This document shows, piece by piece, positions 1 through 22,736 of a stretch of DNA of 31,589 nucleotides. Origin of the DNA: a virus; the IMG/VR virus record IMGVR_UViG_3300025120_000296, positions 1-31,589 of that record. One strand, given 5' to 3'. Below the pieces are notes generated by a model. That model saw only the letters and a program-made list of their open reading frames with translations. It did no database searches and was not told the DNA's origin. The translations under genes were made by a program, and so were the position numbers. How positions within the stretch are numbered: position 1 is the stretch's first letter; each line of letters opens with the position of its first letter.

Positions 1-321
1 GTTAATACTCTTCGTGAACAGTTGGAAGATCTCAATTTATTCAATGCAAAGCTTTTGTATGTTAACAAATTGTTGCAAAACAAAAGCCTGAACGAGAGTC
101 AGAAAAAGTCTGTTATTAAGGCTTTGGATGAAGCACAATCTTTGACTGAAGCAAAATCTTTGTATAAGTCACTAACTGAAACGTTTAGTCGTAGTGGAAA
201 GAAAACAATCTCAGAATCTCGTGTTCTTGGTAGTTCTTCTCGACCAACTACTTCTTCTCAGTCAAACGCAACATCATCTAACAATGAGTTAGGTAGATGG
301 CAACGTTTGGCCGGTTTATAA
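1..321 (+). CDS. 22: Prohead core scaffold protein, gp22-like (3' part only)
   Basis: The reading frame is open from base 1 and ends at TAA 319-321, so only the last 106 codons are present; a TTG at 22 is not a convincing start. The visible part is helical and charged. It contains the stretch NLFNAKLLYVNKLLQ, which resembles the C-terminal region of gp22-type scaffolds of marine T4-like phages, and a low-complexity Ser/Thr tail. Several L-x-E triplets (LRE, LNE, LTE twice) fit a protein destroyed by the gp21 prohead protease, which cuts after (I/L)-x-E. It sits immediately upstream of the major capsid gene, the T4 order 21-22-23. Family assignment is from pattern recognition plus position. 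The N-terminal part lies outside the window. Confidence 0.75.
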   Translation, partial: VNTLREQLEDLNLFNAKLLYVNKLLQNKSLNESQKKSVIKALDEAQSLTEAKSLYKSLTETFSRSGKKTISESRVLGSSSRPTTSSQSNATSSNNELGRWQRLAGL

Positions 322-363: not shown

Positions 364-2292
364 ATGAGTAAGTCATTTACATTGGGTCAGTTGACTGAAG
401 GAATTCGTGATCGTCACGTAGGCCAAGAGTCATCTAGAATTCAAGAAAAGTGGACCAGAACAGGTCTTCTTCGTGGCCTTCAAAGTCACAATCGTGAAAC
501 CATGTCACGTCTACTTGAGAACCAAGCAGCTCAAGTACTTCGTGAAGCAAACACTTTAGGATCTGGTGGTTCTGATAGTGGACAAATCGATGGATTTTCT
601 AACATCGCATTTCCAATCGTTCGTCGTGTATTCGGTGGATTGGTTGCTAATGAACTAGTTTCCATTCAACCCATGTCTCTTCCAAGTGGACTTCTTTTCT
701 ACTTAGACTATACATACGGTCAAGACGTTGGTGGTGATTCTTCTAACGGTGCAGGAACAAATGTAACGTATGAGCAAGGACAATCACTTTACGGTAACCC
801 AGCTGGTGCTTCTGTTCGAACTGGTGCAAATGCAACCGGTGGTCAGTACGACTTAGTTGGTACTTCATACAGTCAAGTTCACGGATCAAGATATATGCGT
901 GGTGCAAGATCTGCTGCAGACGCTGCTGGTACTTCTACACTATTAGCTTCTGGTGCTTTTGGTGGAGGTAATACACAATCTTACGCTGTGAGTGCTGCAG
1001 TTACAACTTCAGGTTCTGATGGTCGATTGCTTCAATTTGACCCACAGATTGTCTCTGATATTGAAAACAATGGTGGACGATATCAATTCCTTATTCTGTC
1101 AGCTAGTGAATTTACATCAGAAACATCTGGTCACGGTGGCGCTAGATTAGATCCAACACAAATCAAGTCACTTGCTCTTGTAACTGATCAACTTAGCAGT
1201 CAATTAGGTCTTAACGATATTCCATCTACAATTCAAGCTGGTAACGGTGTCAAGAACATTAGACGCCTTAATCAGTTAGGAACTTTTGCTAATAACGTTT
1301 TTACTCCTGATGCACTTAAGGAACTTTCTGATGCTAACGCAGCTATTTTAGTTGTAGTATCTGGTTCTCACAAACAAACAGCAGCAAGAAGACCTGGTTT
1401 AACCGGTTCATTTGTAATTCAAGATTCAGTTTCATCAGCTGGTGGTACTGGTGGTACGTTGACTATCCCAACTTTCGAGTCGAATTTCGCATCAACACCG
1501 ACTCCGATCATCCCAGAAATTGATATTAAGATTGAGTCGATTGCTGTGACAGCTACGACACGTAAGTTAAGAGCACGTTGGTCTCCAGAACTTGCTCAAG
1601 ATCTTAACGCATATCACTCAATGGATGCCGAAGTTGAATTGACTCAGATCCTTTCTGAACAAATTGCACTTGAAATCGATCGTGAGATTCTAAATGATCT
1701 TCTTACAGAAGCAAAAGGTGCTAACTTCTTCTGGTCACGTTCACCTGGTAAGTTTGTTAACAAGCAAAACGGTAATGCAGTAAATCTCGTGAGCACATTA
1801 TCAACTGGACCTCAGTTTACTGGTACAGTTCGTGAGTGGTATGAAACTCTTGTTGAAACCATTATCGATGTTGCTAATGAGATTCACAGAAAGACTCTTC
1901 GTGGTTCTGCTAACTTTATCGTGGTTTCACCTGAAGTTGCTACTATCTTCGAAGCTTCTGTATTGTACAAGCCTTCAATTAAGATTGATGGTCAAGGTCA
2001 AGTTGCAATGTCAAGCATTGGTGCTGAGTCTATTGGTACTCTTTCTAACAGGTTTACTGTTTACAAGGATCCTTACTTCCCACGCAACAAGATTCTTGTA
2101 GGTTACAAAGGTGGTTCATATCTTGAGTCTGGATACGTCTATGCTCCATATGTACCGTTGATTGTAACACCAACAATCTTCGCACCAGAAGACTTTACAC
2201 CAAGAAAAGGTGTAATGACTCGTTACGGAAAGAAAATGGTTCGCGCCGATTTCTACGGAACAGTTACTTGTATGGATATGGATATTATCTAA
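364..2292 (+). CDS. 23: Major capsid protein, gp23-like
   Basis: This 642-residue protein builds the T4-type capsid shell. An AAGGAG ribosome binding site lies 8 bases before the ATG. Conserved gp23 features include the N-terminal propeptide with a predicted gp21 cut at L59-R60-E61|A62 (T4 cuts at E65), the segment TTRKLRARWSPELAQDL near residue 395, MDAEVELTQILSEQIALEIDRE after it, and near the C-terminus YKGG followed by YVYAPYVPL and TRYGKKM. The mature form would be about 581 residues, against about 456 in T4. The extra length lies between about residues 125 and 390, in Gly/Ser/Thr-rich sequence where T4 gp23 carries its insertion domain. No gp24-type vertex gene follows in the window. 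Confidence 0.96.
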   Translation: MSKSFTLGQLTEGIRDRHVGQESSRIQEKWTRTGLLRGLQSHNRETMSRLLENQAAQVLREANTLGSGGSDSGQIDGFSNIAFPIVRRVFGGLVANELVSIQPMSLPSGLLFYLDYTYGQDVGGDSSNGAGTNVTYEQGQSLYGNPAGASVRTGANATGGQYDLVGTSYSQVHGSRYMRGARSAADAAGTSTLLASGAFGGGNTQSYAVSAAVTTSGSDGRLLQFDPQIVSDIENNGGRYQFLILSASEFTSETSGHGGARLDPTQIKSLALVTDQLSSQLGLNDIPSTIQAGNGVKNIRRLNQLGTFANNVFTPDALKELSDANAAILVVVSGSHKQTAARRPGLTGSFVIQDSVSSAGGTGGTLTIPTFESNFASTPTPIIPEIDIKIESIAVTATTRKLRARWSPELAQDLNAYHSMDAEVELTQILSEQIALEIDREILNDLLTEAKGANFFWSRSPGKFVNKQNGNAVNLVSTLSTGPQFTGTVREWYETLVETIIDVANEIHRKTLRGSANFIVVSPEVATIFEASVLYKPSIKIDGQGQVAMSSIGAESIGTLSNRFTVYKDPYFPRNKILVGYKGGSYLESGYVYAPYVPLIVTPTIFAPEDFTPRKGVMTRYGKKMVRADFYGTVTCMDMDII

Positions 2293-2415: not shown

Positions 2416-2808
2416 ATGAAATTAAATAGAAAACAAATTAGGTCGCTAATTATGGAAGAGTTAACAACGTCAAATAGAAGAAAACCGTTAAACGAAGGCA
2501 TATTTTCAACTGTTGCACTTGTTGCATTAGGTGCCACTGCAATCGCTGGATATCTAGGCTTATCAATTATACAATTTGAAATCCAACTTGATGCGATGAT
2601 TGAAAACGATACAGAAATGCAAAGATTGCTAGCAGAGATAGGAACTTTAGTAAAAGATAATCCTGACATGTCGCCTACTGACGTCGCTGACATGGCAGCG
2701 AGAAATGATCAAAGAGTAGCTGAAAGAATGCAAGAGCTAATAAACATGCTGAATAGAAGCCGTGCTCAAGCAGAGCGAGAGTTCAACCGTGATCACCCTG
2801 GTTTTTAA
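2416..2808 (+). CDS. Tagged membrane-segment protein, putative internal head protein
   Basis: No family recognised. The 130-residue protein starts at an ATG preceded by TTTTGGAG. Its first 14 residues, MKLNRKQIRSLIME, match the tag shared by the genes at 6546, 6845, 8224, 8638 and 8941 and end in the gp21-type site I12-M13-E14|E15. A second site, L25-N26-E27|G28, lies just before a hydrophobic segment (about 29-52) that looks like one transmembrane helix. The remainder is a charged, Gln/Glu/Arg-rich helix (about 60-125). I infer that it enters the prohead, is clipped at one or both sites, and may reach the host membrane on injection; that last step is speculation. It overlaps the convergent gene at 2805-3035 by 4 bases. 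Confidence 0.8.
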   Translation: MKLNRKQIRSLIMEELTTSNRRKPLNEGIFSTVALVALGATAIAGYLGLSIIQFEIQLDAMIENDTEMQRLLAEIGTLVKDNPDMSPTDVADMAARNDQRVAERMQELINMLNRSRAQAEREFNRDHPGF

Positions 2809-3035
2809 ACAGAAAACTTATTAATAAAGTCTTTTGTTTGTAGCGAAATTCTACCGTCATCAGCCCATTTTACTTTGTAGCATCTAGATTTGTAGTCTGA
2901 TGTAATAATTTCTATTTGTGTTCTATTGCCGTATAGGTTTAAGTTAACTATTTGACCCACAGTAAATTTGTTTCTTTTGTAAATTTTAATCGCTACTGAA
3001 AAGAAGTTAGTAACGTATTGGATGAAGTTTTGCAT
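2805..3035 (-). CDS. Small basic hypothetical protein
   Basis: A 76-residue reverse-strand protein with an AAGGA-type ribosome binding site (AAGGAAATAAAT then ATG). Residues 24-70 (FTVGQIVNLNLYGNRTQ onward, then YKVKWADDG) alternate polar and hydrophobic residues around Gly turns, as in small SH3-like beta barrels. No family is recognised. It is convergent with the tagged membrane protein and overlaps it at the stop codons. Reverse orientation in a late module suggests an independently acquired small gene (moron). Confidence 0.6.
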   Translation of the reverse strand: MQNFIQYVTNFFSVAIKIYKRNKFTVGQIVNLNLYGNRTQIEIITSDYKSRCYKVKWADDGRISLQTKDFINKFSV

Positions 3036-3111
3036 ATTTATTTCCTTGTGTTGTTCTATTATATTATAATACAGTTATCCATCAGTTGCACTTTACATAA
3101 AAAACATACAT

Positions 3112-3120
3112 TATAAAATA
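3112..3120 (+). promoter_or_regulatory. Possible late promoter
   Basis: TATAAAATA repeats the motif found before the capsid gene, 53 bases ahead of the next ATG. A stem-loop at 3122-3140 begins right after it, so a transcript would start with that hairpin. The region 3036-3173 holds no gene. Confidence 0.35.
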
Positions 3121-3121
3121 T

Positions 3122-3140
3122 ATTGTGCCTAACGCACAAT
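3122..3140 (+). repeat. 7-bp inverted repeat (5' leader hairpin or operator)
   Basis: ATTGTGC, a 5-base loop CTAAC, then GCACAAT: a perfect 7-bp inverted repeat. It lies between the TATAAAATA motif and the AAGGAG site of the 3174 gene. No T run follows, so it is not a terminator. It could be a 5'-end mRNA stabiliser or a protein site. Confidence 0.5.
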
Positions 3141-3173
3141 TTACACACATTACATACACGAAAAGGAGAAAAT

Positions 3174-3386
3174 ATGAGTAGTAAACCATTTGAACTTAGA
3201 GCCGGACTGCTAGGGCAAGCGCAAACAATTTTACAAAACAAATATCATCAAGAATATGAAAAGCTTCGTTATCTTTGTGACAAAGACCTGCTTGACGCAA
3301 CAAAAGCCACTTGGCCAAAAATGCCAACTTCTGATGAGATTATTGCTGAGGCAGAAAAATTATATAAGTTTGTACAAACTAAGTAA
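3174..3386 (+). CDS. Conserved short phage protein of the head region
   Basis: A 70-residue protein. I chose the ATG at 3174 because AAAAGGAG lies 6 bases before it; an earlier in-frame ATG at 3123 would put the ribosome site inside the gene. The start (MSSKPFELRAGLLGQAQ) and end (DEIIAEAEKLYKFVQ) are of a kind I recall as common in small ORFs near capsid genes of marine T4-like phages, of unknown function. It is predicted as two or three helices. There is no tag, membrane segment or metal motif. Confidence 0.85.
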   Translation: MSSKPFELRAGLLGQAQTILQNKYHQEYEKLRYLCDKDLLDATKATWPKMPTSDEIIAEAEKLYKFVQTK

Positions 3387-3434
3387 TTTTATTATATGCT
3401 TAATAGAGAGTATAGTTACTAATAGGAGGTAGCT

Positions 3435-4085
3435 ATGCTCTTTTTATATTTTTTATTAACTTTTGCGCTAGGGCAAGAATCTGAAATAGTCGTGGAAGCT
3501 GACGAAAGTATTGTTGTCGAGGCACACAAAGATTTAGAACTATATGTTGCACCAATAACAATGGAAATACATTCAACTGAAGTTGAGGCGATCATCAATA
3601 AACAATCGACGTTTAGGTACGCTTCTACTTACTGGCGAAATGCTAAGTTTAAGAATGAAAGAGGCATATACGAGCCAGTCACAATGCACTCAGATATAAA
3701 AGTATATAACATCGATACTATCGAGTACGTTTGGGACAACTGCAATTATAAGCGTGATGCTAAAAAGTGCGCGTACTTAAACAACCACATGCTACTTGAA
3801 ACTCACATAACAGTCGATGATCATCAAATTGTTGTTAATATGATGTTGTACCGGTCAGACTTGACTGTGATAAGCGCATCAACATACACTAGTCAATCAA
3901 AAATTAGATGGATTAAACAACAAGAGCAGACTGTTATTATGCAATCTGGTCTTATGGGCAATCAGACTATAGTGCACACACCTAAAGAAGAATTACCACT
4001 TAAGTGGTTAATACCCACAAACTTAATGGAAAAACATATTTCTCAGGCAGCAATAAGAATATTTGCCGGAGCAAAGCTTAATTAA
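3435..4085 (+). CDS. Predicted exported protein of unknown function
   Basis: A 216-residue protein with a strong site (AGGAGGT) 5 bases from the ATG. The first 13 residues (MLFLYFLLTFALG) are hydrophobic and end in small residues, like a signal peptide cleaved before Gln14, although the usual positive N-terminal charge is missing. Acidic repeats follow (EIVVEADESIVVEAHKDLEL). The rest looks beta-rich (residues about 40-210), with two Cys (in DNCNYKRDAKKCAY) that could form a disulfide after export. No family is recognised. Phage-coded exported proteins often act at the host envelope during late infection (lysis, exclusion), but nothing here shows which. It overlaps the convergent HExxH gene by 8 bases. 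Confidence 0.75.
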   Translation: MLFLYFLLTFALGQESEIVVEADESIVVEAHKDLELYVAPITMEIHSTEVEAIINKQSTFRYASTYWRNAKFKNERGIYEPVTMHSDIKVYNIDTIEYVWDNCNYKRDAKKCAYLNNHMLLETHITVDDHQIVVNMMLYRSDLTVISASTYTSQSKIRWIKQQEQTVIMQSGLMGNQTIVHTPKEELPLKWLIPTNLMEKHISQAAIRIFAGAKLN

Positions 4086-4419
4086 TATATTGGCGCCAAG
4101 CGTGACGCTCTCTTTTAATAAGATAATCCTCATCATACATTTTTCTGTATGCTTCTTGTTCAAACGGTATGTTCATGTAAGCTTCGTCATTAGTCATTCC
4201 TTTAACTTTACCTTTTAACCAATACCATACATAGAGAATATAAAAGAATATCACCAGAAGCTCTCTCTGCTGCTCTATGTGTATTATTTCATGTCTTATC
4301 GTCACGTCTGACATTTTATTACGTGATATGATAAAAGGAAAAAGAGTAATCGCACTGATACTGATAAAAAGTGAAAGATATTTTGGAATGTTGCTGTTTT
4401 GTATGATAATAGGTTTCAT
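4078..4419 (-). CDS. Small membrane-associated HExxH protein (putative zinc metallopeptidase)
   Basis: A 113-residue reverse-strand protein with AGGAG 8 bases before the ATG. It has two hydrophobic segments (about 13-32 and 54-69) flanking H43-E44-I-I-H47, the zinc-binding signature of metallopeptidases. A downstream Glu (E87 or E89 in IPFEQEAY) could be the third ligand. I recall similar short proteins with a hydrophobic N-terminus, HExxH and FExEAY in bacterial genomes, usually without assigned function, so activity is not shown. Its orientation and its place between two forward genes suggest a moron gene. The ends of this gene and the exported protein overlap tail to tail. Confidence 0.8.
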   Translation of the reverse strand: MKPIIIQNSNIPKYLSLFISISAITLFPFIISRNKMSDVTIRHEIIHIEQQRELLVIFFYILYVWYWLKGKVKGMTNDEAYMNIPFEQEAYRKMYDEDYLIKRERHAWRQYIN

Positions 4420-4490
4420 TGTATTTCTCCTGTAAACTTTGACTCACTACTGTATAATTATTAACGTCATACAAAAATACGGAGGTTATG

Positions 4491-4697
4491 ATGCCAATAA
4501 AAAAGACAGCAGCAGAAGAATGTTGCGCAAAATGTGAAAAAGATATTGCAGCGCTTAGAAAAGAAGTTGCTGCTCTAAAGAAAGAGCTTTCAAAGAATTC
4601 AGCAAGTGGTGCAGACCCTAGAGTGGATATGTTAATTGAGGCTTTAAAATCACAACACCCAAGAACACAAAAACATTTAGAAAACAAAGGTTTATAA
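4491..4697 (+). CDS. Small Cys-rich coiled-coil protein
   Basis: A 68-residue protein. ATG 4488 lies only 2 bases after GGAGG, whereas ATG 4491 has 5 bases, so 4491 is preferred. The N-terminus has a Cys cluster (E-C-C-A-K-C), followed by a heptad-type coiled coil (about 16-38: DIAALRKEVAALKKEL) and a short tail. The cluster could bind a metal or link subunits, but three Cys alone do not define a site. Short Cys plus coiled-coil ORFs are seen in other marine phage structural regions. The function is unknown. It is divergent from the HExxH gene across 71 bases. Confidence 0.8.
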   Translation: MPIKKTAAEECCAKCEKDIAALRKEVAALKKELSKNSASGADPRVDMLIEALKSQHPRTQKHLENKGL

Positions 4698-4704
4698 GGA
4701 TATA

Positions 4705-4712
4705 TATAAACA
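4705..4712 (+). promoter_or_regulatory. Possible late promoter before the paralog pair
   Basis: TATAAACA, one base from the T4 late core TATAAATA, is followed within 4 bases by the stem at 4716-4754 and then by the gene at 4789. Weak on its own. Confidence 0.3.
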
Positions 4713-4715
4713 GGC

Positions 4716-4754
4716 CCGACACAAAGCATAAAGACGACCCCACCGTCGTGTCGG
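4716..4754 (+). promoter_or_regulatory. Structured 5' leader: nested hairpin
   Basis: CCGACAC (4716-4722) pairs with GTGTCGG (4748-4754), and GACG (4733-4736) pairs with CGTC (4744-4747). The two 3' arms are contiguous; the 5' arms are split by a 10-base bulge. No T tract follows, so this is a leader structure and not a simple terminator. It is clearly GC-richer than its surroundings. Confidence 0.6.
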
Positions 4755-4788
4755 AATCTTGTGGACAAGTATCTCAATGGAGGAAATT

Positions 4789-5334
4789 ATGCCAAAAGTA
4801 AGTTATACGGCCGCAAAGGGTCTTATTCAAGAAACTGGGGCCGGCTTTGACGTTAACGGTTCAAAAAATTCAAACGTATTAGTTCGCTCAGCAGTAACTG
4901 CTCATGATCTATCATCTGTAAATGAAGATTTAACTGTTATCTACACGGGAACAATGGACGGTGCAGTTACACTGCCACAAGCAACAGCAGCAAATACTGG
5001 GATGGTAATCAAGCTATTGCATTCTGTTGATGGTGGTAATTCTGCAGTATCGATTGGTTTTCTAAATTCTGGTTCTACTGTTATGTTTGGAACAATTTTA
5101 TTGTTATCAGATAATGCTGCAGCCGCACCCGATGCTGTTGCTTTGGCTAACAATGCAAAAGTAATTACACGTGATGCGAATGCTACCGACAAAGCAGGAG
5201 GAGCACAAGGGTCACAATATACATTTACGTACTTAGGTGCAAATTTAGTTCATTGCGAAGCGATTGGTGTTGGTGCTGGTGGTCTTACACCTGCAGCTGC
5301 CGCCGGTGCTTCATCTGCAACAGGTATTTCATAA
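4789..5334 (+). CDS. Beta-rich virion-type protein, paralog 1
   Basis: A 181-residue protein. ATG 4789 follows GGAGG with good spacing; an in-frame ATG at 4759 has no site. It is a close paralog of the next gene: by eye about 80% of the first 80 residues match (MPKVSY, GSKNSNV, SSVNED, YTGTMDG-VTLP, NTGMVIKLLHSVD), the middle diverges, and the end matches again (YTFTYLGA, AAGASSATGI). The Thr/Gly-rich, beta-like sequence with a TLP-(Q/N)-AT segment is typical of phage surface, decoration or fibre-type proteins. I infer a capsid decoration or accessory virion protein. The GC-rich structured leader and strong site suggest high expression. Confidence 0.85.
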   Translation: MPKVSYTAAKGLIQETGAGFDVNGSKNSNVLVRSAVTAHDLSSVNEDLTVIYTGTMDGAVTLPQATAANTGMVIKLLHSVDGGNSAVSIGFLNSGSTVMFGTILLLSDNAAAAPDAVALANNAKVITRDANATDKAGGAQGSQYTFTYLGANLVHCEAIGVGAGGLTPAAAAGASSATGIS

Positions 5335-5349
5335 TTAGAGGAGTAAATT

Positions 5350-5895
5350 ATGCCAAAAGTAAGCTATAACGCTAGTCAAGGTCTAATCCAGCAAAACGGT
5401 TCCGGATTCGATCTTAACGGTTCAAAAAATTCTAATGTCATTGTACGTTCTGCAACAACAGATCATAATCTATCATCTGTAAATGAAGATACAACCGTTG
5501 TTTATACAGGAACAATGGACGGTGTAGTTACACTTCCTAATGCGACTGCTAGTAACACAGGAATGGTGATTAAGTTATTGCATTCTGTCGACAGCTCTAA
5601 CACTGAAAGAAAAGTTGGGGTTGCAAATGGAACGCCCCAAACAACTATTTCCGGAACGATTACTTTAATATCTGCAGATGCAACGGATTTGCATGATCAA
5701 GAGGCGTTACTTAACAATGCTGAATGTATTTTGCGCGATGCTAATGCAGTTAATCGAGCGGGTGGCGGGCAAGGAACTTCCTATACTTTTACCTATCTTG
5801 GCGCCCAAAAAATACATTGTAAAGCGCTAGGTGTTGTTAACGGTAGTCAGACACCAAACTTGGCCGCTGGTGCTTCATCTGCAACAGGTATATAA
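5350..5895 (+). CDS. Beta-rich virion-type protein, paralog 2
   Basis: A 181-residue tandem copy of the preceding gene, 15 bases downstream, with its own GGAG site. The N-terminal 80 residues and the last 40 are similar to copy 1. Residues about 82-125 are divergent (SSNTERKVGVANG region), as expected if the centre is an exposed variable face. No catalytic motif is visible. The two genes share one leader and end at the terminator at 5923, so they form a two-gene transcription unit. The role as a decoration or fibre-like structural protein is inferred from composition and position only. Confidence 0.85.
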   Translation: MPKVSYNASQGLIQQNGSGFDLNGSKNSNVIVRSATTDHNLSSVNEDTTVVYTGTMDGVVTLPNATASNTGMVIKLLHSVDSSNTERKVGVANGTPQTTISGTITLISADATDLHDQEALLNNAECILRDANAVNRAGGGQGTSYTFTYLGAQKIHCKALGVVNGSQTPNLAAGASSATGI

Positions 5896-5922
5896 TCGTT
5901 AATTAAAAGTTTAATTGTTATT

Positions 5923-5953
5923 AAAAGCACTCTTTTGAGTGCTTTTTTATTTT
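5923..5953 (+). terminator. Rho-independent terminator after the paralog pair
   Basis: A perfect 10-bp stem (AAAAGCACTC, loop TTTT, GAGTGCTTTT) runs into further T residues. It ends the 4789-5895 unit. Confidence 0.93.
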
Positions 5954-5962
5954 ATATTAAAT

Positions 5963-5974
5963 CAGACCGGTCTG
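5963..5974. repeat. 12-bp perfect palindrome
   Basis: CAGACCGGTCTG reads the same on both strands and has no loop. It lies 10 bases after the terminator and about 44 bases before the membrane protein gene. The form suits a dimeric DNA-binding protein. No repressor is encoded in the window. Confidence 0.45.
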
Positions 5975-6017
5975 GCTTTTCAGGGTAAAATAACCTACTT
6001 ATATACATCACTCGGAT

Positions 6018-6440
6018 ATGATTATGAAGATTGTTTTTGCTATCGCACTTTTGTTTACATGTCACATACTAGCATGGCTACAAGTTAACGGCCCTATTTT
6101 TAATGACTGGTGGAAGGATAATATGCTAATTAGTGCGTTTATTGTATCACCAATAATATTTTGGTGTAGCATTACATACTGGACGATAACATACGAATGG
6201 CTCCAAGCTGTTTGGTCAGTAAAATTTATAGCATACGGCGTAAATATTGTAGTTTTTTCAATTTGTGCCTACTATTTTCTTGGTGAGTCGTTATTTACTA
6301 TTAGGAACGTTGTTAGTATCATATTTGCAACGTTAATGATATTATCACAAGCATATCTACCAAAAACGAGCATATTTAGTGTCGAACAAAAAGCCCCAGA
6401 AAACATCAATAATGACAATGTTACTAGTCGTACTGATTAG
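6018..6440 (+). CDS. Integral membrane protein, four predicted helices
   Basis: A 140-residue protein with hydrophobic segments near residues 4-22, 36-56, 68-88 and 94-112, and a polar tail. Neither ATG 6018 nor ATG 6024 has a clear ribosome site; 6018 is the longer choice. Small proteins with a Trp-rich first loop (VNGPIFNDWW) and a YFLGE motif before the last helix resemble a DMT/EamA-like half-transporter type that I recall from marine phages and bacteria. Its role in infection is unknown. It follows a terminator and palindrome, so it may have its own promoter. It overlaps the next small ORF. Confidence 0.8.
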   Translation: MIMKIVFAIALLFTCHILAWLQVNGPIFNDWWKDNMLISAFIVSPIIFWCSITYWTITYEWLQAVWSVKFIAYGVNIVVFSICAYYFLGESLFTIRNVVSIIFATLMILSQAYLPKTSIFSVEQKAPENINNDNVTSRTD

Positions 6441-6582
6441 TATTTGGCTTGGCTACGAGTTTTTACGATACGATATTGAATGTTTCTGGAGAAAATACAG
6501 GATTGATGAGATAATTAATAACATCTATAATAAAGGAGTAGAGCTATGTCGTCGATTAATAGAGATAAAATCAGAAAATTAA
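6412..6582 (+). CDS. Possible small single-pass membrane protein
   Basis: Starting at ATG 6412 (the more upstream GTG 6379 is possible), this gives 57 residues: a hydrophobic segment at about 2-17 and a charged, Arg/Lys/Glu-rich tail. It overlaps the previous gene by 29 bases and the next by 37. There is no good ribosome site, but translational coupling to the gene ending at 6440 is possible. The membrane-helix-then-charged-tail layout is found in small phage proteins such as holin and spanin partners. It has no specific motif, so it may not be a real gene. Confidence 0.4.
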   Translation: MTMLLVVLISIWLGYEFLRYDIECFWRKYRIDEIINNIYNKGVELCRRLIEIKSEN

Positions 6583-6845
6583 TTTTAAAAGAGTTTAAAA
6601 TGATAGGAATGACCGATATGGGTCATGGTGGAATGAAGCCTATGGGTATGCCTAGCCACAACCCTATGCCAGAAATGGAAATGGGTCACGGACACTCAGC
6701 AATGAAGTCGTCTAAAAGTTGTGTGTCACGTGAAGATTGCTGTGCTGCAATTATGTGCTTGGTTGAATGCTGTGAGTGCCCAATCACAAAGCAAGTAATT
6801 ATGGAATGCTGCCAAGAAATCATGTCTGGCCAACACGATCATTAA
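6546..6845 (+). CDS. Tagged Met/His/Cys-rich protein, putative metal-binding internal protein
   Basis: A 99-residue protein with AAAGGAG 9 bases before the ATG. Residues 4-16 (INRDKIRKLILKE) are a variant of the shared tag and end in L14-K15-E16|F17, a possible gp21 site. Residues 19-53 carry 10 Met and 4 His in MxxM and HxH patterns. The C-terminal part (59-89) has nine Cys: 59, 65, 66, 71, 75, 76, 78, 88 and 89. Met/His-rich segments bind copper in bacterial copper proteins, and Cys clusters bind zinc or copper, so metal binding is a reasonable inference, not a demonstrated one. The stop overlaps the next start (TAATG), so the two genes are translationally coupled. Confidence 0.85.
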   Translation: MSSINRDKIRKLILKEFKMIGMTDMGHGGMKPMGMPSHNPMPEMEMGHGHSAMKSSKSCVSREDCCAAIMCLVECCECPITKQVIMECCQEIMSGQHDH

Positions 6846-8227
6846 TGAAAATAACGAGGCGCCAACTCCAAATGTTAATACAAGAGGAGATACGCAAGGT
6901 GAAGCCGGGTTGCTATAAAGTATACCCGAAAAAACCTAAGCGTGGCAAGAAGCGTCGCAAAGCGTTGTCTAAGAAGTGTAAAACATTACCAGCAGCAAAA
7001 AAGCACTTGGCAGCTATTGAAATTAGTAAGTCAATGAATGAAAAAGATAATCCGTGTTGGGATGGTTATCGACCGGGTGCTAAATCTGGCAAAAAAACAA
7101 AAACTGGAAAATCCGGAAAGACAGTTGCAAATTGCGAAAAGATAAATGAGTCTCTTCTTTTAGAATCCAAGTATGATCAACTCATGGTACAGTTACCAGA
7201 CTTATCTTTATCTGTTTCCTTTGACCAATCTAGCTCTGGCGCGCTAGATCTTCATGATGGAGGTTACTTAATTGCTTCTGCTGTATTACAACATCTGACA
7301 ATTCCTAGTAATCCTTGTATCCCTAATACATTGTCAATTAGTAATATTCACGTCGCGGCTTCCCATCAAAATTTAGGGATAGGGGATCTTTTACTTGACT
7401 TGATCTTTTATCATGCTAGTACATTAGATGGTGGGAAAGGTTACGGGATTACAACTGATTTTGAAGGTGGTAACACACCAATAATCAATTATATGATTCA
7501 GAGAGCGCTCCAAGATCCAGCATATTACAAACAACGTACTAGCGCTGGTAATGACAAGATGGACTTTTTTGAAAAAACTGCAGATCCAAATGATGATTGT
7601 TACGCGGAAGTTTTTGACGAAGCAGGTGTGTATGAACTAATGGATGTTTACGGTTATAGTGAAGAAGAAGCATATAAAGAAGCGGGATTTTCTGATGAAA
7701 ATTTTCCTCTAGGAACAACTAGCTCTTGGCGAAAAAGAGGTATTGAGTCTATGAAGCCTGTGTGGGAAATGCTTACACAAAGACAGAGTCCAGACATACT
7801 TTATCGACCGGTAGCTAGAATGAAGGGGTTTAGACAAGAGTATGATAACACACCCACACCTGAAGAAATACGTGCATTTCAAAGAGATAAAAAACTAAAA
7901 GAAGACAAAGAGCCAAGAAAAGGCACGGGTAAAAAACCAAAAGGCAGTAGTAGGCGATTATATACTGATGAGAATCCTAAGGATACTGTCTCTGTTAAGT
8001 TTCGAACTAAGTCTGATATACAGGACACCCTTTCAAAAAAAAGCTTTAAGAGTAAGCCTCATAATAGACAGTCACAGATAATTAATCTTATACACCAGCG
8101 CGTTCGCGCGGCTTATAAGAACGCAAAAGATCCTGCAACAAAAAAACGTTTAAAGCGTGCATATGATTATGCAAAAGAAAGAAAAGAAGCGAGTAAGCGT
8201 AAGACTCAAAAAATGAGAAAGAAATGA
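6845..8227 (+). CDS. Tagged lysine-rich protein with GNAT acetyltransferase-like domain
   Basis: A 460-residue protein. The start at 6845 is chosen because it begins with the tag (MKITRRQLQMLIQE) and forms TAATG with the previous stop. Modules: tag 1-14 with cut site I12-Q13-E14|E15; Lys/Arg-rich 18-97 including PGCYKVYPKKPKRG and PCWDGY; a second cut site pair, I100-N101-E102|S and L105-L106-E107|S; a GNAT-like domain at about 112-235 with the acetyl-CoA loop pattern Q175-N-L-G178-I-G180 after the strand ISNIHVAA; an acidic stretch 240-290; and a very basic C-terminus 345-460. I infer a protein packaged with DNA and possibly split by the prohead protease into a basic peptide and an enzyme. 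The T4 parallel is the packaged enzyme Alt, though its chemistry differs. No acetyl-transfer activity is shown. Confidence 0.85.
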   Translation: MKITRRQLQMLIQEEIRKVKPGCYKVYPKKPKRGKKRRKALSKKCKTLPAAKKHLAAIEISKSMNEKDNPCWDGYRPGAKSGKKTKTGKSGKTVANCEKINESLLLESKYDQLMVQLPDLSLSVSFDQSSSGALDLHDGGYLIASAVLQHLTIPSNPCIPNTLSISNIHVAASHQNLGIGDLLLDLIFYHASTLDGGKGYGITTDFEGGNTPIINYMIQRALQDPAYYKQRTSAGNDKMDFFEKTADPNDDCYAEVFDEAGVYELMDVYGYSEEEAYKEAGFSDENFPLGTTSSWRKRGIESMKPVWEMLTQRQSPDILYRPVARMKGFRQEYDNTPTPEEIRAFQRDKKLKEDKEPRKGTGKKPKGSSRRLYTDENPKDTVSVKFRTKSDIQDTLSKKSFKSKPHNRQSQIINLIHQRVRAAYKNAKDPATKKRLKRAYDYAKERKEASKRKTQKMRKK

Positions 8228-8925
8228 AAATAACAAGAAAAGAATTGCAAGCGTTGAATGCAAGCGCTATGAGTGAAGGTTTTTTCGATAGATTCTTTGG
8301 TAAGAAAAAAGAAGAAGAAGAAAGTACTAGAGAACTATTGCTTAAGAAAAGGTTTAAAGCGTTGAAGGATGTACATTCAAGACTCGCACGTGGTGAAATA
8401 ACACATGCACAAGCAGAAGAAATTAGGCAAACAATTAACAATCCGATGTCTAGCGAATACAGAACGCCAGAACAACAGTTAGCTGCGATGGATACGGATA
8501 TATCGAAGACTATAATGGACTTTGAGGCATCGCAAAGCGCACATAATAAAAAGCAAAAGCTCAATGCTTTAAAACAAAAAATCAAAGATAAAGAAAGAAA
8601 AAGAATGTCAGAAAAACAAAATTTCAAAGGAGACAAAATGAAAATAACAAGAATACAACTTAGAAAACTAATAAATGAAGCAATCGAAGATTTAGACTAC
8701 TTTGATCAAGGAAAAGTTTTTGCCGCACTAAAAATGCTCCCGGCAGATCACAAGGCAAAAGTAGAAGATTTTTTAAACAATGTTTTAAAAATTACTGCAG
8801 ATGAATTTAACAAAATTGAAGATGACGAGTCGATCACAGCAAAAATTAAAGATTTTGTTAAGGAATATAAATCTAACAATAATATCGAAGCTCTTTTGAC
8901 AAAAATTAAGAATTTGTTACGTTAG
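8224..8925 (+). CDS. Double-tag protein: two tagged proteins in one reading frame
   Basis: A 233-residue frame. Its ATG overlaps the previous TGA (ATGA), so it is translationally coupled. The first half begins MKITRKELQALNASAMSE: tag-like at the start, but the expected I-x-E is degraded (M-S-E). A Lys/Glu-rich coiled region follows (about 22-135). At residue 139 a complete second tag begins (MKITRIQLRKLINE|A), preceded in DNA by a full ribosome site, AAAGGAG, 5 bases before ATG 8638. No stop codon separates the halves. The simplest reading is that two neighbouring tagged genes have lost the stop between them, so the phage may make both the 233-residue fusion and the separate C-terminal protein. 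Confidence 0.75.
   Translation: MKITRKELQALNASAMSEGFFDRFFGKKKEEEESTRELLLKKRFKALKDVHSRLARGEITHAQAEEIRQTINNPMSSEYRTPEQQLAAMDTDISKTIMDFEASQSAHNKKQKLNALKQKIKDKERKRMSEKQNFKGDKMKITRIQLRKLINEAIEDLDYFDQGKVFAALKMLPADHKAKVEDFLNNVLKITADEFNKIEDDESITAKIKDFVKEYKSNNNIEALLTKIKNLLR
8638..8925 (+). CDS. Tagged small helical protein from an internal start
   Basis: In-frame start inside the 8224 gene, giving 95 residues. It has its own AAAGGAG site, ATG 8638 and an intact tag ending I12-N13-E14|A15, the best match in the window to the T4 internal-protein form I-x-E|A. The mature part (15-95) is acidic and helical, with a second half (TADEFNKIEDDESITAKI) lacking any known motif. The strong ribosome site and the N-terminal position needed for a tag argue that this start is used. 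Whether it also occurs as the C-terminal half of a fusion is open. Confidence 0.65.
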   Translation: MKITRIQLRKLINEAIEDLDYFDQGKVFAALKMLPADHKAKVEDFLNNVLKITADEFNKIEDDESITAKIKDFVKEYKSNNNIEALLTKIKNLLR

Positions 8926-8940
8926 ACATAGGCAGGTTAT

Positions 8941-9234
8941 ATGTTAATCACAGAAAGTCAATTAAGAAAATTAGTGCATAAAATTATGTTAACTGAAAAC
9001 AAACTAAAAGATTTTGTTGGCAATGTTAAAGTTTATGATTTCGATAAAGATAGAACTAAAAAACCAGAAGAGACTGAAATAATTGTGAAGGTAGATATTA
9101 AGTCGACAGTAGAAAATGCAGAAGGTATTGCACGAGGATTTGGCGCGGATAATGGTTACAAATATAAATTTAAAAAACATTTAAGCCCAGATCCAATTAA
9201 TCCGGAAGAAGGATACTTTCTTTTTTCTAGATAA
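8941..9234 (+). CDS. Tagged small protein
   Basis: A 97-residue protein of no recognised family. The start MLITESQLRKLVHKIMLTE keeps the tag pattern (QLRKL) with a longer spacer and ends in L17-T18-E19|N20. The mature part looks like a small alpha/beta domain: a strand near NVKVYDFD, a strand ETEIIVKVDI, a helix TVENAEGIARGFGA and a basic end with YKYKFKKH. The ribosome site is weak (GGCAGG). It is the last gene of the tagged cluster and lies 15 bases after the double-tag gene. Confidence 0.8.
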   Translation: MLITESQLRKLVHKIMLTENKLKDFVGNVKVYDFDKDRTKKPEETEIIVKVDIKSTVENAEGIARGFGADNGYKYKFKKHLSPDPINPEEGYFLFSR

Positions 9235-12420: not shown

Positions 12421-15400
12421 ATGGCAGAGCAAACATTTAGATCTCCGGGTTTTTTCGAAAGAGAAGTTGATTTAACTCAGAGAACAGTAGAAATCGAAGG
12501 TGTACCTGCAGGAATTATTGGGACAGCTGTGCAAGGGCCAGCATTTGTACCCGTTACCCTAGGGTCTTTTGTAGATTTTGAAAGAAAATTTGGAACGCTA
12601 AACAAAGATCGTTTTGGGCCTTATGCTGTTAACGAGTGGCTAAAGAATAGAACAGCTGTTACTTACGTGAGAGTTTTAGGCGCCGGAGCGGCAAATTCCA
12701 CAGGTGACATACAGACGACACTATCACAAGGTACCGTTAAAAATGCAGGTTTTAGAATAAAAGGAACAGAAGTAGGTAGTGTTGCTGGCGCAAACGATAA
12801 AAGACATAAAGGTGGTGTACAGTTTATTGTTGCTGCACACGACACAAATGAGCTAGAACCGGCAGGATATCCACTTTTTACTGATAGCGATTCTTTTAAC
12901 ACTGCAACGTCGATAAGATTAATTCGTGCAATGTTGTTTACAGCAACTGGTTCGCGTCTTCAGATTCTTGATCATGACGCGTCATATTCAACGGCCAATG
13001 TCGCTGATGACTTAAGCAAGGTTAAAGATTACGACGGGACAAAAGAAGGCGGTACTTTTAAGTTAGTACTTTCTAGCGCATTAGGTGAATCTTACGGTAA
13101 CGACGATTCTAATCCAGGTATTAGAATATATACAGCCTCGTTAGATCCGAATAACAAATACTATATTTCTAGATTTTTAAACACAGACCCAGATAAATTT
13201 CACGAAGAACAGCATTTGTTGTACGCAGACTTTTCTGTTGAGAGTGAACTCGCGAGAGTAACATATAACGCGACAAAAGGTACAGTTGGTATTGCATCTG
13301 GATCTGCTGGTACAAGTTTAGCTAGCGGCGACACTAGCTTAACGTTTAGAGACGTATTTGGTAGGTTTGACACGCGTTATAAATCAGCAAAAACAACTGC
13401 TTTCATAACACAGCCTTTTGGTAGTAAAGAATACAACTTATTTCACTTTGAATCTTTAGATGACGGTGAAGTAAGCAATACAAGAGTAAAAATATCAATT
13501 GCAAACCTTAGAAGATCAACTAACGTAAAATCAAGTTACGGTACATTTTCTGTTTTAGTAAGGGACTACAACGATACAGATACTGATATGAAAATTCTTG
13601 AACAGTTTTCTTTGTGTACACTGGATCCAAGATCAGAAAATTATGTAGCTAACAAAATTGGCGATATGAAAGTTTACTTTAACTTTGATGCCGAGTCTGA
13701 GTCTGAAAGACGCATAAACGTTGAAGGTAAAAGACCAAATCGCTCTAGCTTTATAAGAATCGTTATGGATCGAAATGTTGAAGATCGATTAATACCAGAA
13801 GATTCTTTACCTTTCGGTTTCAGAGGACTTCCTTTATTAAAAACAAACGAAAGTTTGACTGATGATGACACTGTTTTGGAAGGTGGTAGTCGAAGACAAA
13901 GATTAGCACTAGAAGAAGGAACTGTTGGCGTTGCAAATGAATGCTTAACAGGATCGATTTTACCTCCTGTACCTTTTAGATTTAAAGTGACACGTGGCGC
14001 AGTTAACAAGGATTCAACACCAACATTTACTGGTGAACCGGGTTCTCTAGAATTAACAGACAGTAGATTCTTTTGGGGTGTAAAATTAGAAAGCTTACCT
14101 GTGACAGGAACAATAGGTGATGCAGTATTGCAATCGAATGCGTCATCAAACAAAAATAAGCTTGTTGAGAGTTATTCAAAGCTGCTAGGCATACAAAAGC
14201 TAGATGCACTGGTAACAGGTTCTGGTGCTGATAGTTTTAATAATAATAAGTTTACTTTAGCAAAAGTAGCACTTCACAATCAAATAGCACTTACTTCAAC
14301 AATTGAAGGTTCTATCGCTACTGCTATTACAGGAACAGCGTCGGAGCATATGAGAGAAGCAGCATACATTAGAAATGGTGTTAACGAAACCAAGAACTAT
14401 ACAATCACAGATGATGGTTCCACAGTTCACCAAAGAGTAACACTAGCGACTTTAGCTGCTGCACGAAGCGCAAAATACTTTAATAGATTTACTGACTTTG
14501 CAAAGTTTACAAATGTTTTCTACGGCGGCTTTGATGGGCTGAATATTCTTGATAAAGATAATAGGCTGATGAATGATCGAGCTAGCTCTGTTGCCGCAAA
14601 TGGAAAAGCAGACGTAAGTAATGGTACATATACACACCAAAATTTGCATGCAGACTCAAATGCAGGAAGTGGTAAAGATAATAATATTATTAACTCATAT
14701 AGAACAGCTGCTAGAATCATAACTGACCCTTTGGCATCTCGCGTCAATATCGTTGCTATACCTGGTATACGTGAGCCATTTGTTACTGATTTTGTTTCAG
14801 ACTTGACACGCGATTATAGCAAGGCAATATACTTAATGGATATTCCTTCGTTTACAGATCCTAACGCTAGTGGTGTCTCGACAAGAATATTTTCAAAAAC
14901 ACAAAGACCTAATGTTCAAGAAACAGTAGAAACATTTGAGGGGCGTGCCCTGGATAACAGTTATGTTTCCACATATTTTCCTGATGTTGTTTTTGCTGAT
15001 GATGAAAATAATACATCAGTTACTTTACCTTCATCAATTGCAGCTATAAAAGCTCTCGGCTTCAACGATGCAGTTGCATATCCTTGGTTTGCCCCAGCCG
15101 GCTTTAATCGTGGTGCGCTTAGTAATGTTCTAAATTCTAAAGTCAGACTAAATGCGGAAGATAGAAACATCTTATATGAGGCAAGAATAAATCCAATTGC
15201 AAACTTTCCAAATGGTGGGTTTGTGATATTTGGACAAAAAACATTACAACAGGATCGCTCAGCATTAGATAGAGTAAATGTAAGAAGAATGCTTTTAGAA
15301 GTAAAGCGAATCGTTTCAGAAATTGCCAACAGGTTAATTTTTGAGCAAAATACACCACAAACCCGTGCAAGATTTGTTGCTGAGGTAACACCACAACTAG

Positions 15401-15582
15401 CCACAATACAAGCACAACAAGGGGTTGACCAGTTTAAGGTAGTAATGGATTCTACGAATAACTCCTCACTAGACATCGAATCAAATCGTCTTAATGGGAG
15501 AATCGTCTTGGTTCCAACTCGTGCAGTAGAATTTATTGCAATCGATTTCATTATTACAAATTCAGGTGTAAGTTTCGAATAA
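12421..15582 (+). CDS. 18: Tail sheath protein, gp18-like, copy 1
   Basis: A 1053-residue contractile sheath subunit, against 659 in T4. ATG 12421 follows AGGAGAG. The N-terminal signature (FRSPGFFEREVDLTQR, VEGVPAGIIGTA-like, GPAFVPVTLGS, FGTLNKDRFGPYAVNEWL, TYVRVLGAGAA) and the C-terminal core (AYPWFAPAGFNRGAL, LYEARINPIANFPNGG, VIFGQKTLQ, ALDRVNVRRMLLEVKR, VPTRAVEFIAIDF) are those of phage sheaths; the C-terminal strands hook neighbouring subunits. The middle (about 120-750) is expanded and would form outer domains. It is followed after 22 bases by a second sheath gene. No sign of decay is seen. Confidence 0.95.
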   Translation: MAEQTFRSPGFFEREVDLTQRTVEIEGVPAGIIGTAVQGPAFVPVTLGSFVDFERKFGTLNKDRFGPYAVNEWLKNRTAVTYVRVLGAGAANSTGDIQTTLSQGTVKNAGFRIKGTEVGSVAGANDKRHKGGVQFIVAAHDTNELEPAGYPLFTDSDSFNTATSIRLIRAMLFTATGSRLQILDHDASYSTANVADDLSKVKDYDGTKEGGTFKLVLSSALGESYGNDDSNPGIRIYTASLDPNNKYYISRFLNTDPDKFHEEQHLLYADFSVESELARVTYNATKGTVGIASGSAGTSLASGDTSLTFRDVFGRFDTRYKSAKTTAFITQPFGSKEYNLFHFESLDDGEVSNTRVKISIANLRRSTNVKSSYGTFSVLVRDYNDTDTDMKILEQFSLCTLDPRSENYVANKIGDMKVYFNFDAESESERRINVEGKRPNRSSFIRIVMDRNVEDRLIPEDSLPFGFRGLPLLKTNESLTDDDTVLEGGSRRQRLALEEGTVGVANECLTGSILPPVPFRFKVTRGAVNKDSTPTFTGEPGSLELTDSRFFWGVKLESLPVTGTIGDAVLQSNASSNKNKLVESYSKLLGIQKLDALVTGSGADSFNNNKFTLAKVALHNQIALTSTIEGSIATAITGTASEHMREAAYIRNGVNETKNYTITDDGSTVHQRVTLATLAAARSAKYFNRFTDFAKFTNVFYGGFDGLNILDKDNRLMNDRASSVAANGKADVSNGTYTHQNLHADSNAGSGKDNNIINSYRTAARIITDPLASRVNIVAIPGIREPFVTDFVSDLTRDYSKAIYLMDIPSFTDPNASGVSTRIFSKTQRPNVQETVETFEGRALDNSYVSTYFPDVVFADDENNTSVTLPSSIAAIKALGFNDAVAYPWFAPAGFNRGALSNVLNSKVRLNAEDRNILYEARINPIANFPNGGFVIFGQKTLQQDRSALDRVNVRRMLLEVKRIVSEIANRLIFEQNTPQTRARFVAEVTPQLATIQAQQGVDQFKVVMDSTNNSSLDIESNRLNGRIVLVPTRAVEFIAIDFIITNSGVSFE

Positions 15583-15604: not shown

Positions 15605-18600
15605 ATGGCAGAAATAACATTTAAATCAGCTGGTGTAAAGACAAGAGAAATAGACCTTTCTCAACCAACCCGTGTTGGACCGGTTGGAGTACCTGCTGGT
15701 ATTGTTGGAACTTCAAACGAAGGTCCTGCTTTTGTTCCTTTAACGTTTGCAAACTATAGAGATTTTGTGACGACATTTGGCAGGTCTGATGGTGAAAAAT
15801 TTGGACCTATTGCTGTTAATCAATGGTTAGCTAACGCACAGGCAGTATCTTATATTCGTGTATTAGGAGCTGGTAATGGAAAACAAAGAAATACATCAAC
15901 AGGCAAAGTAACTAATGCAGGTTTTGTCGTAGGTGATAGAATAATTCAAGACAACGGAATTATTGGTAACAACTTTTACGCGACTGGCTCTATCGAAGGA
16001 AGAACTTACTTTCTTGGCTGCTTTATGTCAGAGTCAAACGGATCTACAATTTTTAGTGATGCAGGAATACAGAAAACGACAACAATAAGCGGTAAAAGAG
16101 CTACTGCAACCATAACAGTGACAGACGCGGGAGAGATTACTACAGGTAACCAGATATCGTTAGTTACAACTGCTGGTAATACAGTAACAATAACAGGACA
16201 TGCTGACACCAATGCCATGGCTGACACAACAGGCGCATCTACAAACGGAACTTTTGCAGCAAATACAACACTTTCTGGTGGTAGTTCGAACAATATTACC
16301 CAGGCTGCAGCCATTGCAGCTACTATTAATCTACATGATGATTTTACTGCGACTAACGGGGGCACTGCAACTGTAACAATAACACAAAACACTGGTGGGA
16401 CAGCAGGAAATGGTCGCGCAATTACTGTTGCTAAAAACGGTGGTGATGGAGATATTGAAGCACCTGGTGACTTAACTATAGTAAATTTCTCCGGAGGTAG
16501 TGACGGTAACCACGCTGTACCTATCCTTAGGGGTGTTTTACTTGCACCGAGCGGTGTAATTTTGCACTTAAGTGGTAATGCTACTGCTAACGGAAGCAAC
16601 GCGCCAACAAAAGGTATTTCTTCAATAGTAGCATCACCACAAGTTATGGGTCGTGAAGGTGCATTGACCGGTTCTGTCTCGTTGGCGTCACAAGAATTTG
16701 TAATGCTCTTAAATGGCTATAACAACACAGATGTCGCAAAAAAGACACACATTACGGCTTCTTTTGATATCACAGCACCAAATTATTTTGCAAATGTTTT
16801 CAACACAAACCCATTAAAAATAGAAGAAGAAGGTCATTTGTTGTATGGACACTATGATATACATCCTGACATAGCTGCTGTAACTGGTAGCGGTGCTGTT
16901 ACAGCGGGTGGTTTTTCTAAAGGTTGTGCTAACGGCAAAGACAAAGAAGATATCGCGTTGTTACTGACTTCTTCTGTGACTAGAGGTACAACAACTGCTA
17001 ACAAGCCAGTATATGAAGATTTTGAGGATCGTTTTAGTCATGCAAAGTCTCCTTTTGTTATATCACAAGATAATAAGAGTCTTTTTAGAGTCCATTTACT
17101 TTCTGCAGGTGCAGGTGTTTCAAGTAAGTACAAATTCTCAATTGAAAACTTAAGAAGATCGAATTCTTCCATAAACAAATATGGTACTTTTGATTTAATT
17201 GTTAGAGACTTTAACGATACAGATCAAGAACCTAAGTCACTCGAGTCATTTAGGGGTTTAAGTTTAGATCCTGCTTCAGATCGCTACATCGGTCGTGTTA
17301 TTGGTGACCAGCATACATTCTTTAATTTTGACGTAAATCAATCCAGTCAAAAAATAATCGTCGATGGATCGCATCCTGTTAGGTCAAGGTTTATAAGAGT
17401 TGAACTATCTGATGAAGTTGCAAATGGTACTGTTGAGAAAACTTCTTTACCTTTTGGTTTCAGAGGGCCGGATCATCTATTGACAAGTGGTGCTCTATTG
17501 TCGAACGAGGGTGACAACTATTACATAGCACCTGTTTTACAACTTGTGGAACCTCCTATTCCATACCGCGATACAGTTGCTCAAGGCGTTGGTATACAAA
17601 AACGATCAGATGGTAGACTATTTTGGGGTGTACAAACAACTAGAAAAACAAGTACAACTCAACCAAACTTAAACGGCCTTCAAGATAAATCTTTTAATAC
17701 TTTTGTCAAGCATTTTCCAAATCACAGAATTGATTTTCCTAGTTTCTCTGTAGGTAATAACCCAGGTGTCTCTGACGTCGCAGGTACAGTATTAGATTGC
17801 GACAGGTTTAATAATAATAAATTTACACTTAAGAACATCCTGGTAAGAACAGGATCAGATGGGAAAGCTGATCCGGAACAATGGTTAAGTGCGTCATACA
17901 AAAGAGCTGGAGGTATAGGCAGAAATGCTACAGATAAGACTCGTGCTTTTGAGATCACAGACTTAGATAAAGTTGCAAACGTTAAATTTGCCAAGTTTAC
18001 TTTTATTGCACAAGGTGGTTTTGATGGTATAAACATTTTTGATGAAGAAAAGTCCAAACTATCTAATACTGCGATACTTCGTGAAGTTGGTAATGATGAA
18101 AATAGTGCCGGGACAGGAAACAATACAGTTGGTGCTTATAGAAAAGCTATTGACATTATGAGTTCAAAAACTGATGTCGACATTCAAGTTCTTGCCGCAC
18201 CAGGTATTAGACACGCTTCTGTGACAGACTTTGCTACTCAAAAAATCGAAGATCGCTTTGACGCAATCTACTTAATGGATGTTGAAGAACGAGACCAACT
18301 TAATACTGTCATTACATCTTCAGTACAAAAACCTCACGTTCTTAATACAGTAACATCCTTTAAGGGACGTGCGCTTGATTCATCATTTGCAGCTGCATAT
18401 TTTCCAGACGTTATCTTAAATGATCCGGATACTAACACGCTTGTACAGGTACCACCATCAGTCGCAGTATTGGGTGCGTATTCACTTAACGATCGTGTCG
18501 CACATCCCTGGTTTGCACCAGCAGGTTTCGCAAGAGGAGCTTTAAATGCTGTAGAAATGGCATCTGTTCGACTTAATCGTACTAACTTAGACGACTTGTA

Positions 18601-19003
18601 TGAGGCAGATATCAATCCAATAACAGCTTTCCCGGGTACCGGTGTTACTATATGGGGGCAGAAAACTTTACAAGCAGCTAACTCTGCGCTTGATAGAATT
18701 AATGTAAGAAGATTGCTGATTGATGTAAGAAGGAAAGTAAAGAATGTTGCAAATTCTTTGTTATTTGAACCTAACAGAGAAGAAACACTCGAGAGGTTCA
18801 CTGCTTTAGTTAATCCAATTTTACAGAGAGTTCAAGAACAAAGTGGTATTGACAGGTATAAAGCAGTGATTGATACATCAACTACAACGCAAGCTGATGT
18901 AGAAAACAATACCATACGTGGAAAGATATTCTTGCAGCCCACACGTTCAGTTGAGTTTGTAGCACTAGATTTTGTTGTAACAAATGCTGGTTCAAATATT
19001 TAG
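15605..19003 (+). CDS. 18: Tail sheath protein, gp18-like, copy 2 with inserted domain
   Basis: A 1132-residue sheath paralog with a CGGAGAA ribosome site. Both terminal cores match copy 1: GVPAGIVGTSNEGPAFVPLT and YIRVLGAGN at the N-terminus; HPWFAPAGFARGAL, WGQKTLQ, ALDRINVRRLLIDVRRK and PTRSVEFVALDFVVTNAG at the C-terminus. Residues about 158-300 are a Thr/Ala/Gly-rich module absent at the matching place in copy 1, where FTDSDSFN runs straight into TSIRLIRAML. The module looks like a repeated beta domain known from marine phage virion proteins. Both copies are full length, so both may enter the sheath, or each may be used in a different part of it. Confidence 0.95.
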   Translation: MAEITFKSAGVKTREIDLSQPTRVGPVGVPAGIVGTSNEGPAFVPLTFANYRDFVTTFGRSDGEKFGPIAVNQWLANAQAVSYIRVLGAGNGKQRNTSTGKVTNAGFVVGDRIIQDNGIIGNNFYATGSIEGRTYFLGCFMSESNGSTIFSDAGIQKTTTISGKRATATITVTDAGEITTGNQISLVTTAGNTVTITGHADTNAMADTTGASTNGTFAANTTLSGGSSNNITQAAAIAATINLHDDFTATNGGTATVTITQNTGGTAGNGRAITVAKNGGDGDIEAPGDLTIVNFSGGSDGNHAVPILRGVLLAPSGVILHLSGNATANGSNAPTKGISSIVASPQVMGREGALTGSVSLASQEFVMLLNGYNNTDVAKKTHITASFDITAPNYFANVFNTNPLKIEEEGHLLYGHYDIHPDIAAVTGSGAVTAGGFSKGCANGKDKEDIALLLTSSVTRGTTTANKPVYEDFEDRFSHAKSPFVISQDNKSLFRVHLLSAGAGVSSKYKFSIENLRRSNSSINKYGTFDLIVRDFNDTDQEPKSLESFRGLSLDPASDRYIGRVIGDQHTFFNFDVNQSSQKIIVDGSHPVRSRFIRVELSDEVANGTVEKTSLPFGFRGPDHLLTSGALLSNEGDNYYIAPVLQLVEPPIPYRDTVAQGVGIQKRSDGRLFWGVQTTRKTSTTQPNLNGLQDKSFNTFVKHFPNHRIDFPSFSVGNNPGVSDVAGTVLDCDRFNNNKFTLKNILVRTGSDGKADPEQWLSASYKRAGGIGRNATDKTRAFEITDLDKVANVKFAKFTFIAQGGFDGINIFDEEKSKLSNTAILREVGNDENSAGTGNNTVGAYRKAIDIMSSKTDVDIQVLAAPGIRHASVTDFATQKIEDRFDAIYLMDVEERDQLNTVITSSVQKPHVLNTVTSFKGRALDSSFAAAYFPDVILNDPDTNTLVQVPPSVAVLGAYSLNDRVAHPWFAPAGFARGALNAVEMASVRLNRTNLDDLYEADINPITAFPGTGVTIWGQKTLQAANSALDRINVRRLLIDVRRKVKNVANSLLFEPNREETLERFTALVNPILQRVQEQSGIDRYKAVIDTSTTTQADVENNTIRGKIFLQPTRSVEFVALDFVVTNAGSNI

Positions 19004-22735: not shown

Positions 22736-22736
22736 C

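Follow-up and report, generated by a model that had tools for sequence, protein, structure and literature searches.

Background

The head of bacteriophage T4 holds injected proteins of about four kinds. The capsid-targeting concept itself is already known from this phage, whose internal proteins form a highly diverse set in which only the capsid-targeting sequence (CTS) is conserved (PMC3012670). In T4 IPIII, which begins MKTYQEFIAE, residues 4 and 7 matter most for targeting and residues 8 and 10 for processing, and the T4 protease gp21 cleaves after L/I-x-E (PMC9026906). A common N-terminus has also been reported for gp53 and gp54 of phage SPN3US (PMC5694885).

In this study we describe an N-terminal tag, with the consensus MKITRRQLRKLIxE followed by A, E or S, in proteins of a T4-like phage and its relatives. 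The window is the entire IMG/VR record IMGVR_UViG_3300025120_000296, 31,589 bases in length. As in T4 IPI-IPIII and Alt (PMC9026906, PMC3012670), a short N-terminal tag stands on otherwise unrelated proteins and is ended by L/I-x-E, a gp21-type protease, a gp22-like scaffold and gp23 are present, and residues 8, 11, 12 and 14 of the tag profile have the same spacing as the targeting and processing residues 4/7/8/10 of the T4 CTS. The tag differs from MKTYQEFIAE (read from L247) in sequence and in being four residues longer, and the cargo here, unlike that of T4, is in part modular with sites at domain borders. The inner-head and ejection proteins of the giant phages phiKZ and SPN3US (PMC5694885) also have a shared start on diverged proteins that ends at prohead-protease sites, and several such sites per protein, but their sites are A-x-E or S-x-E, whereas here the motif is [IL]xE with P3 conserved as I/L/V; most propeptides of their processed head proteins exceed 100 residues, against about 14-19 here, and the capsid here is of the gp23 type with a gp22-like scaffold.

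The shared N-terminal tag is firmly established. Several lines of sequence evidence agree in strongly supporting targeting and cleavage, and it is likely that the tag is a capsid-targeting sequence of the T4 type, with a sequence of its own and a far larger set of cargo, part of it apparently polyprotein. From this support we infer that the tagged proteins are docked, cleaved, packaged and ejected.

Capsid genes and tagged starts of the window

The window opens with the C-terminal end of a gp22-like scaffold (1..321, plus strand) that shares 92% identity with its L008 counterpart; the 106 residues present in the window hold 6 [IL]xE sites where 1.4 are expected. It is followed by the gene for the major capsid protein gp23 (364..2292, plus strand; Pfam Gp23, 3.3e-78), for which the predicted propeptide cut is LRE61/A (the slash marks the cut); L-[RK]-E near residue 61, the expected end of the propeptide, is invariant in 60/60 aligned relatives. 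Between gp23 and the tagged cluster lie two adjoining paralogs (4759-5334 and 5350-5895; MPKVSY...), and similar pairs are seen in relatives. A search of 50,697 phage records with the first 20,000 bases of the window turned up nothing closely similar, and a cultured isolate of the tag-bearing clade, or its virion proteomics, was looked for and none found.

The original prediction named six start codons, at 2416, 6546, 6845, 8224, 8638 and 8941, as the beginnings of six separate proteins with a common tag, five of them closing it with (I/L)xE. All six start codons are present at these coordinates and five tags do end in this way (IME14, LKE16, IQE14, INE14 and LTE19). A position profile built on residues 2-15 recovers the common beginning clearly at four of them, with scores of 32.9 (2416), 39.0 (6845), 39.7 (8638) and 25.0 (8941), while the consensus is a poor fit to 6546 and 8224, and the number of separate proteins has to be qualified, as 8224 and 8638 share one frame without an intervening stop.

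All six starts are on the plus strand. The protein at 2416..2808 (MKLNRKQIRSLIME14/E) has a second site, LNE27/G, directly ahead of a hydrophobic stretch. At 6546..6845 (MSSINRDKIRKLILKEF) the tag is displaced by one residue, giving the L-K-E/F variant LILKE16/F ahead of a body rich in His, Cys and Met, and homologs of this protein occur in L008, L019, L052 and L059. The frame at 6845..8227 (IQE14/E) encodes a modular protein with module swaps in relatives and a GNAT-like model, discussed below. The start at 8224 (MKITRKELQALNASAMSEGFF; MKITRKELQALNASAMSE18/G) carries a weak tag that agrees with the others over roughly 8 initial residues only and has M-S-E/G as its site, and it opens a stop-free frame of 233 residues (8224..8925) that contains the strong tag of 8638 (8638..8925; MKITRIQLRKLINE14/A) internally. 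Because 8638 has a ribosome-binding site of its own, a strong Shine-Dalgarno sequence (AAAGGAGACAAAATG), its product is perhaps made separately, and the frame may yield either this separate product or one double-tagged protein. The last tagged protein (MLITESQLRKLVHKIMLTE19/N) is encoded at 8941..9234.

Distribution of the tag and its conservation as protein

A profile search for further carriers, suggested with the original prediction, found many genome-wide in the relatives. Across the window and relatives, 111 of 28,564 start codons score at least 8, compared with 1 for shuffled N-termini, and the same score is reached at 16 of 455,949 non-start positions. By the profile, the tagged proteins of six long contigs number 23, 17, 27, 11, 9 and 6; a DNA pattern that tolerates one mismatch yields as many as 36 tagged starts in a contig and, when reversed, 0, and controls for the per-contig tag counts give 0-1. 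There are thus up to dozens of carriers here as against about four in T4. One contig has a close cluster of about 30 tagged genes with mostly short and differing bodies, and tagged genes are dispersed across the genome, beyond the neighbourhood of the head genes. A strict DNA pattern, run over 2.9 million viral contigs, matches 87 stretches (0 when reversed), and it matches one contig in a bacterial and archaeal collection of 257 billion bases. Contig L234 (NHDW01000006.1; 306 kb, five tags) is filed under Methylococcaceae bacterium TMED69, and because gp21 and gp23 are found together on one contig of this genome, it is probably a phage contig binned with the bacterium. Neither tblastn with a concatenated tag as query nor a literature text search for the string MKITKRQLR gave a match.

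The bodies behind the tag are unrelated, with a mean column identity of 4% over 101 aligned tagged proteins. Tags of one genome agree at 0.71-0.83 of second codon positions but at only 0.49-0.57 of third positions, and the 30 bases upstream of tagged genes are no more alike than those of other genes; on this codon pattern the tag is a protein-level signal, kept as protein rather than as DNA. Were it a DNA-level relic, that is, a 5' cassette copied by recombination whose peptide has no function, neither the low identity of third positions nor the ordinary upstream bases would be expected, and a DNA-level repeat origin is contradicted by the codon pattern. The use of the same codon in different tags is somewhat over expectation (for example 0.58 vs 0.41 expected in G002), an excess that does speak for copying and shows some tags to have been copied recently, but as an account of the tag as a whole we regard the relic as extremely improbable.

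The T4 late promoter TATAAATA is absent upstream of tagged genes, which is uninformative. In G002 the motif AAAAGTGTAAC is found 5' of about a dozen mainly untagged genes, in the sense direction only, and is possibly a promoter element.

A predicted protease site closing the tag

To examine the predicted cleavage site without letting it select itself, tagged N-termini were chosen by residues 2-10 alone. The pattern [ILVM]12-x-E14 is present in 139 of 166, with the next residue most often E, A or S, and in the remaining 27/27 an [ILVM]xE stands elsewhere, its P3 falling within residues 11-22, a feature of 23% of untagged genes (p 5e-18); [ILVM]xE near residue 14 is therefore found in 166/166 of the N-termini examined. 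The tag profile was seeded from tags that mostly already bore the site, which does not explain replacement sites at other positions. The site fits the published L/I-x-E rule of T4 gp21 (PMC9026906), as had been predicted from the window. Mature gp23 also contains several [IL]xE motifs, at or above chance, so the motif alone is no proof of cutting, and since mature gp23 retains them, accessibility must matter.

The constant presence of a site also bears on the idea that the tag docks proteins to a different phage assembly (the membrane or a replication site, for example) and that [IL]xE is merely part of a helix. Such a role would agree with the dispersal of tagged genes over the genome rather than in the vicinity of the head genes alone, but helix packing accounts neither for the replacement of every missing site (27/27) nor for the sites at module borders, and gp21 and gp23 co-occur in tag-bearing records. 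We consider it improbable.

Prohead protease, scaffold and core gene

Capsid targeting of the T4 type, the reading we prefer, calls for a prohead protease. The window begins inside the scaffold gene, downstream of the place expected for gp21, and the protease was read from the relatives: a gp21-type protease is present upstream, as anticipated, and the order gp21, gp22-like scaffold, gp23 is kept, in 42/42 relatives with at least 5 kb of sequence upstream of gp23. The protease of L008 matches Pfam Peptidase_S77 with an E of 4.7e-28. The scaffolds contain 24-27 [IL]xE motifs where 9-13 are expected. A small core gene is also present in 42/42 relatives, between gp21 and the scaffold in L008, and in many of them its start is tag-like (e.g. 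MKMTRQDLKSIVKECLVEILSEGL), several scoring low on the profile. The C-terminal motif [RK]WxxLA is common to the gp22-like scaffold (window 1-321) and the core gene beside gp21 (L008 6552-7088).

Of the 41 records that bear the tag, the bacterial-bin genome apart, 11 have a gp21, and exactly these 11 also have a gp23; among tag-bearing viral contigs of at least 120 kb both are present in 9/10. In G016, a tag-bearing contig of 134,713 bases that may be a fragment, neither gp21 nor gp23 was found.

Proposed pathway and the tagged proteins

In the pathway we propose, an amphipathic N-terminal helix would dock the tagged protein on the gp22-like scaffold core during prohead assembly, mainly through hydrophobic residues 8 and 11. 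Once the gp23 shell has closed, the gp21-type protease would cut after [I/L]-x-E (12-14) or a nearby replacement site and free the mature cargo protein inside the head, where it would be packed along with the DNA and from which it would pass into the next host on ejection. Modular proteins like that of 6845-8227 would be split into separate products at extra [IL]xE sites on their domain borders. Taken to its full extent, this would mean that at least a tenth of the gene products are addressed to the head by one tag, that part of them are shuffled polyproteins cut at module borders in the capsid, and that dozens of different ones are delivered per virion, a picture that is quite possible but tentative.

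If the tag works as suggested, large uncultivated phages load dozens of proteins, and a 14-residue profile would list candidate injected takeover or counter-defence proteins directly from genome sequence. The tag would also give predictions of prohead-protease sites, including those in the interiors of multi-domain proteins, and is a possible cargo-loading label for gp23-type capsids.

Pfam and PHROGs searches on 101 tagged proteins identified LysM, phage lysozyme, 5'-3' deoxyribonucleotidase, HNH endonuclease and, weakly, GNAT, with most of the proteins receiving no assignment from either. Some carriers, such as the lysozyme and the deoxyribonucleotidase, could also act late inside the producing cell, a point against head loading. 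These bodies enter into the question of whether, even with targeting to the prohead core granted, most tagged proteins are instead core fillers or size-setters that are destroyed or expelled at maturation. In favour of fillers, this motif is also where gp22, gp67 and gp68 of the T4 core are cut up (PMC9026906), and the start of the conserved core gene resembles the tag. The tagged bodies are short in many cases, and in some another [IL]xE follows closely on the tag. Several bodies, however, are enzymes (lysozyme, nucleotidase, GNAT-like, HNH), and the bodies differ widely among relatives, which fits accessory cargo better than structural parts; we therefore hold a filler role for most of them to be rather unlikely and delivered cargo the better reading.

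The data do not support basic, DNA-condensing cargo, and here an expectation drawn from T4 fails: T4 internal proteins are basic, whereas the bodies behind the tag do not exceed other proteins in basicity (median pI 4.75 vs 5.96 in G002), basicity being outside the working of the tag. Two further assignments were considered and dropped. An ADP-ribosyltransferase for a G003 tagged protein (L111:8327-10051) is not claimed, the single-sequence model having a pLDDT of 31, and a kinase for L115:1891-2697 was set aside, its motifs having been seen by eye and a homolog scan having matched only the query's own contig.

Modular proteins

The 6845..8227 protein consists, in order, of the tag, a basic module (KVYPKKP), the sites INE102/S and LLE107/S, a GNAT-like domain, the site LKE353/D and a DENP module. 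An AlphaFold model of the GNAT-like domain has a mean pLDDT of 59.5 and a core of 70-87 (moderate confidence); the Foldseek matches listed are acetyltransferases, with a best E of 1.3e-3, and VIA-align gives a best Z of 8.7. We name the domain GNAT-like only, because the sequence match of the 6845 protein to Acetyltransf_1 (E 0.2, 12.4 bits) is under the Pfam cut-off of 20.7; one tagged relative matches Acetyltransf_1 at E 0.0043. The counterparts in L052 and L240 are without the GNAT-like domain, that in L019 has a LysM-lysozyme between similar flanks, and in G003 the GNAT-like domain directly follows a different tag.

In proteins of this type [IL]xE stands at the module borders. It immediately precedes the C-terminal DENP module in 40/64 distinct upstream contexts against 2.2 expected, a statistic that overstates independence as the DENP-module homologs share ancestry. 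Where the DENP module is at the protein start (e.g. MAKDPKVGTG), no site precedes it among the versions listed, and the single contig of this kind that was searched (58.6 kb) has no gp21 match.

Other tags and other features of the window

Other phage groups (L248-L308; L082) seem to have N-terminal tags of their own ending in [IL]xE, such as MISLxxILNEVLSE, MNLQENIxRIKEMMGxIxE, MSLVNELIKDLLPE and MENFDLKKFLVE. In L085 (LR756508, a 484-kb phage), most of about seven genes 3' of gp23 (20787-26666) carry a different short tag, MKLKxLLxE, and several genes of this region have a common body with an invariant YRG arginine. A protein of G002, the contig of L008, resembles a GroEL-type chaperonin by eye (132626-134224). 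In the window, two large related neighbours (12421-15582 and 15605-19003) look like tail sheath paralogs. A 348-residue frame at 30015-31061 has a C-terminal half resembling, by eye, a DNA polymerase A fragment, beside which an obvious full-length DNA polymerase was not seen in the window. The frame at 31058-31588 is open at the window end, and some 95 residues into it there is a tag-like stretch, VEINKSVIRNLIMEN.
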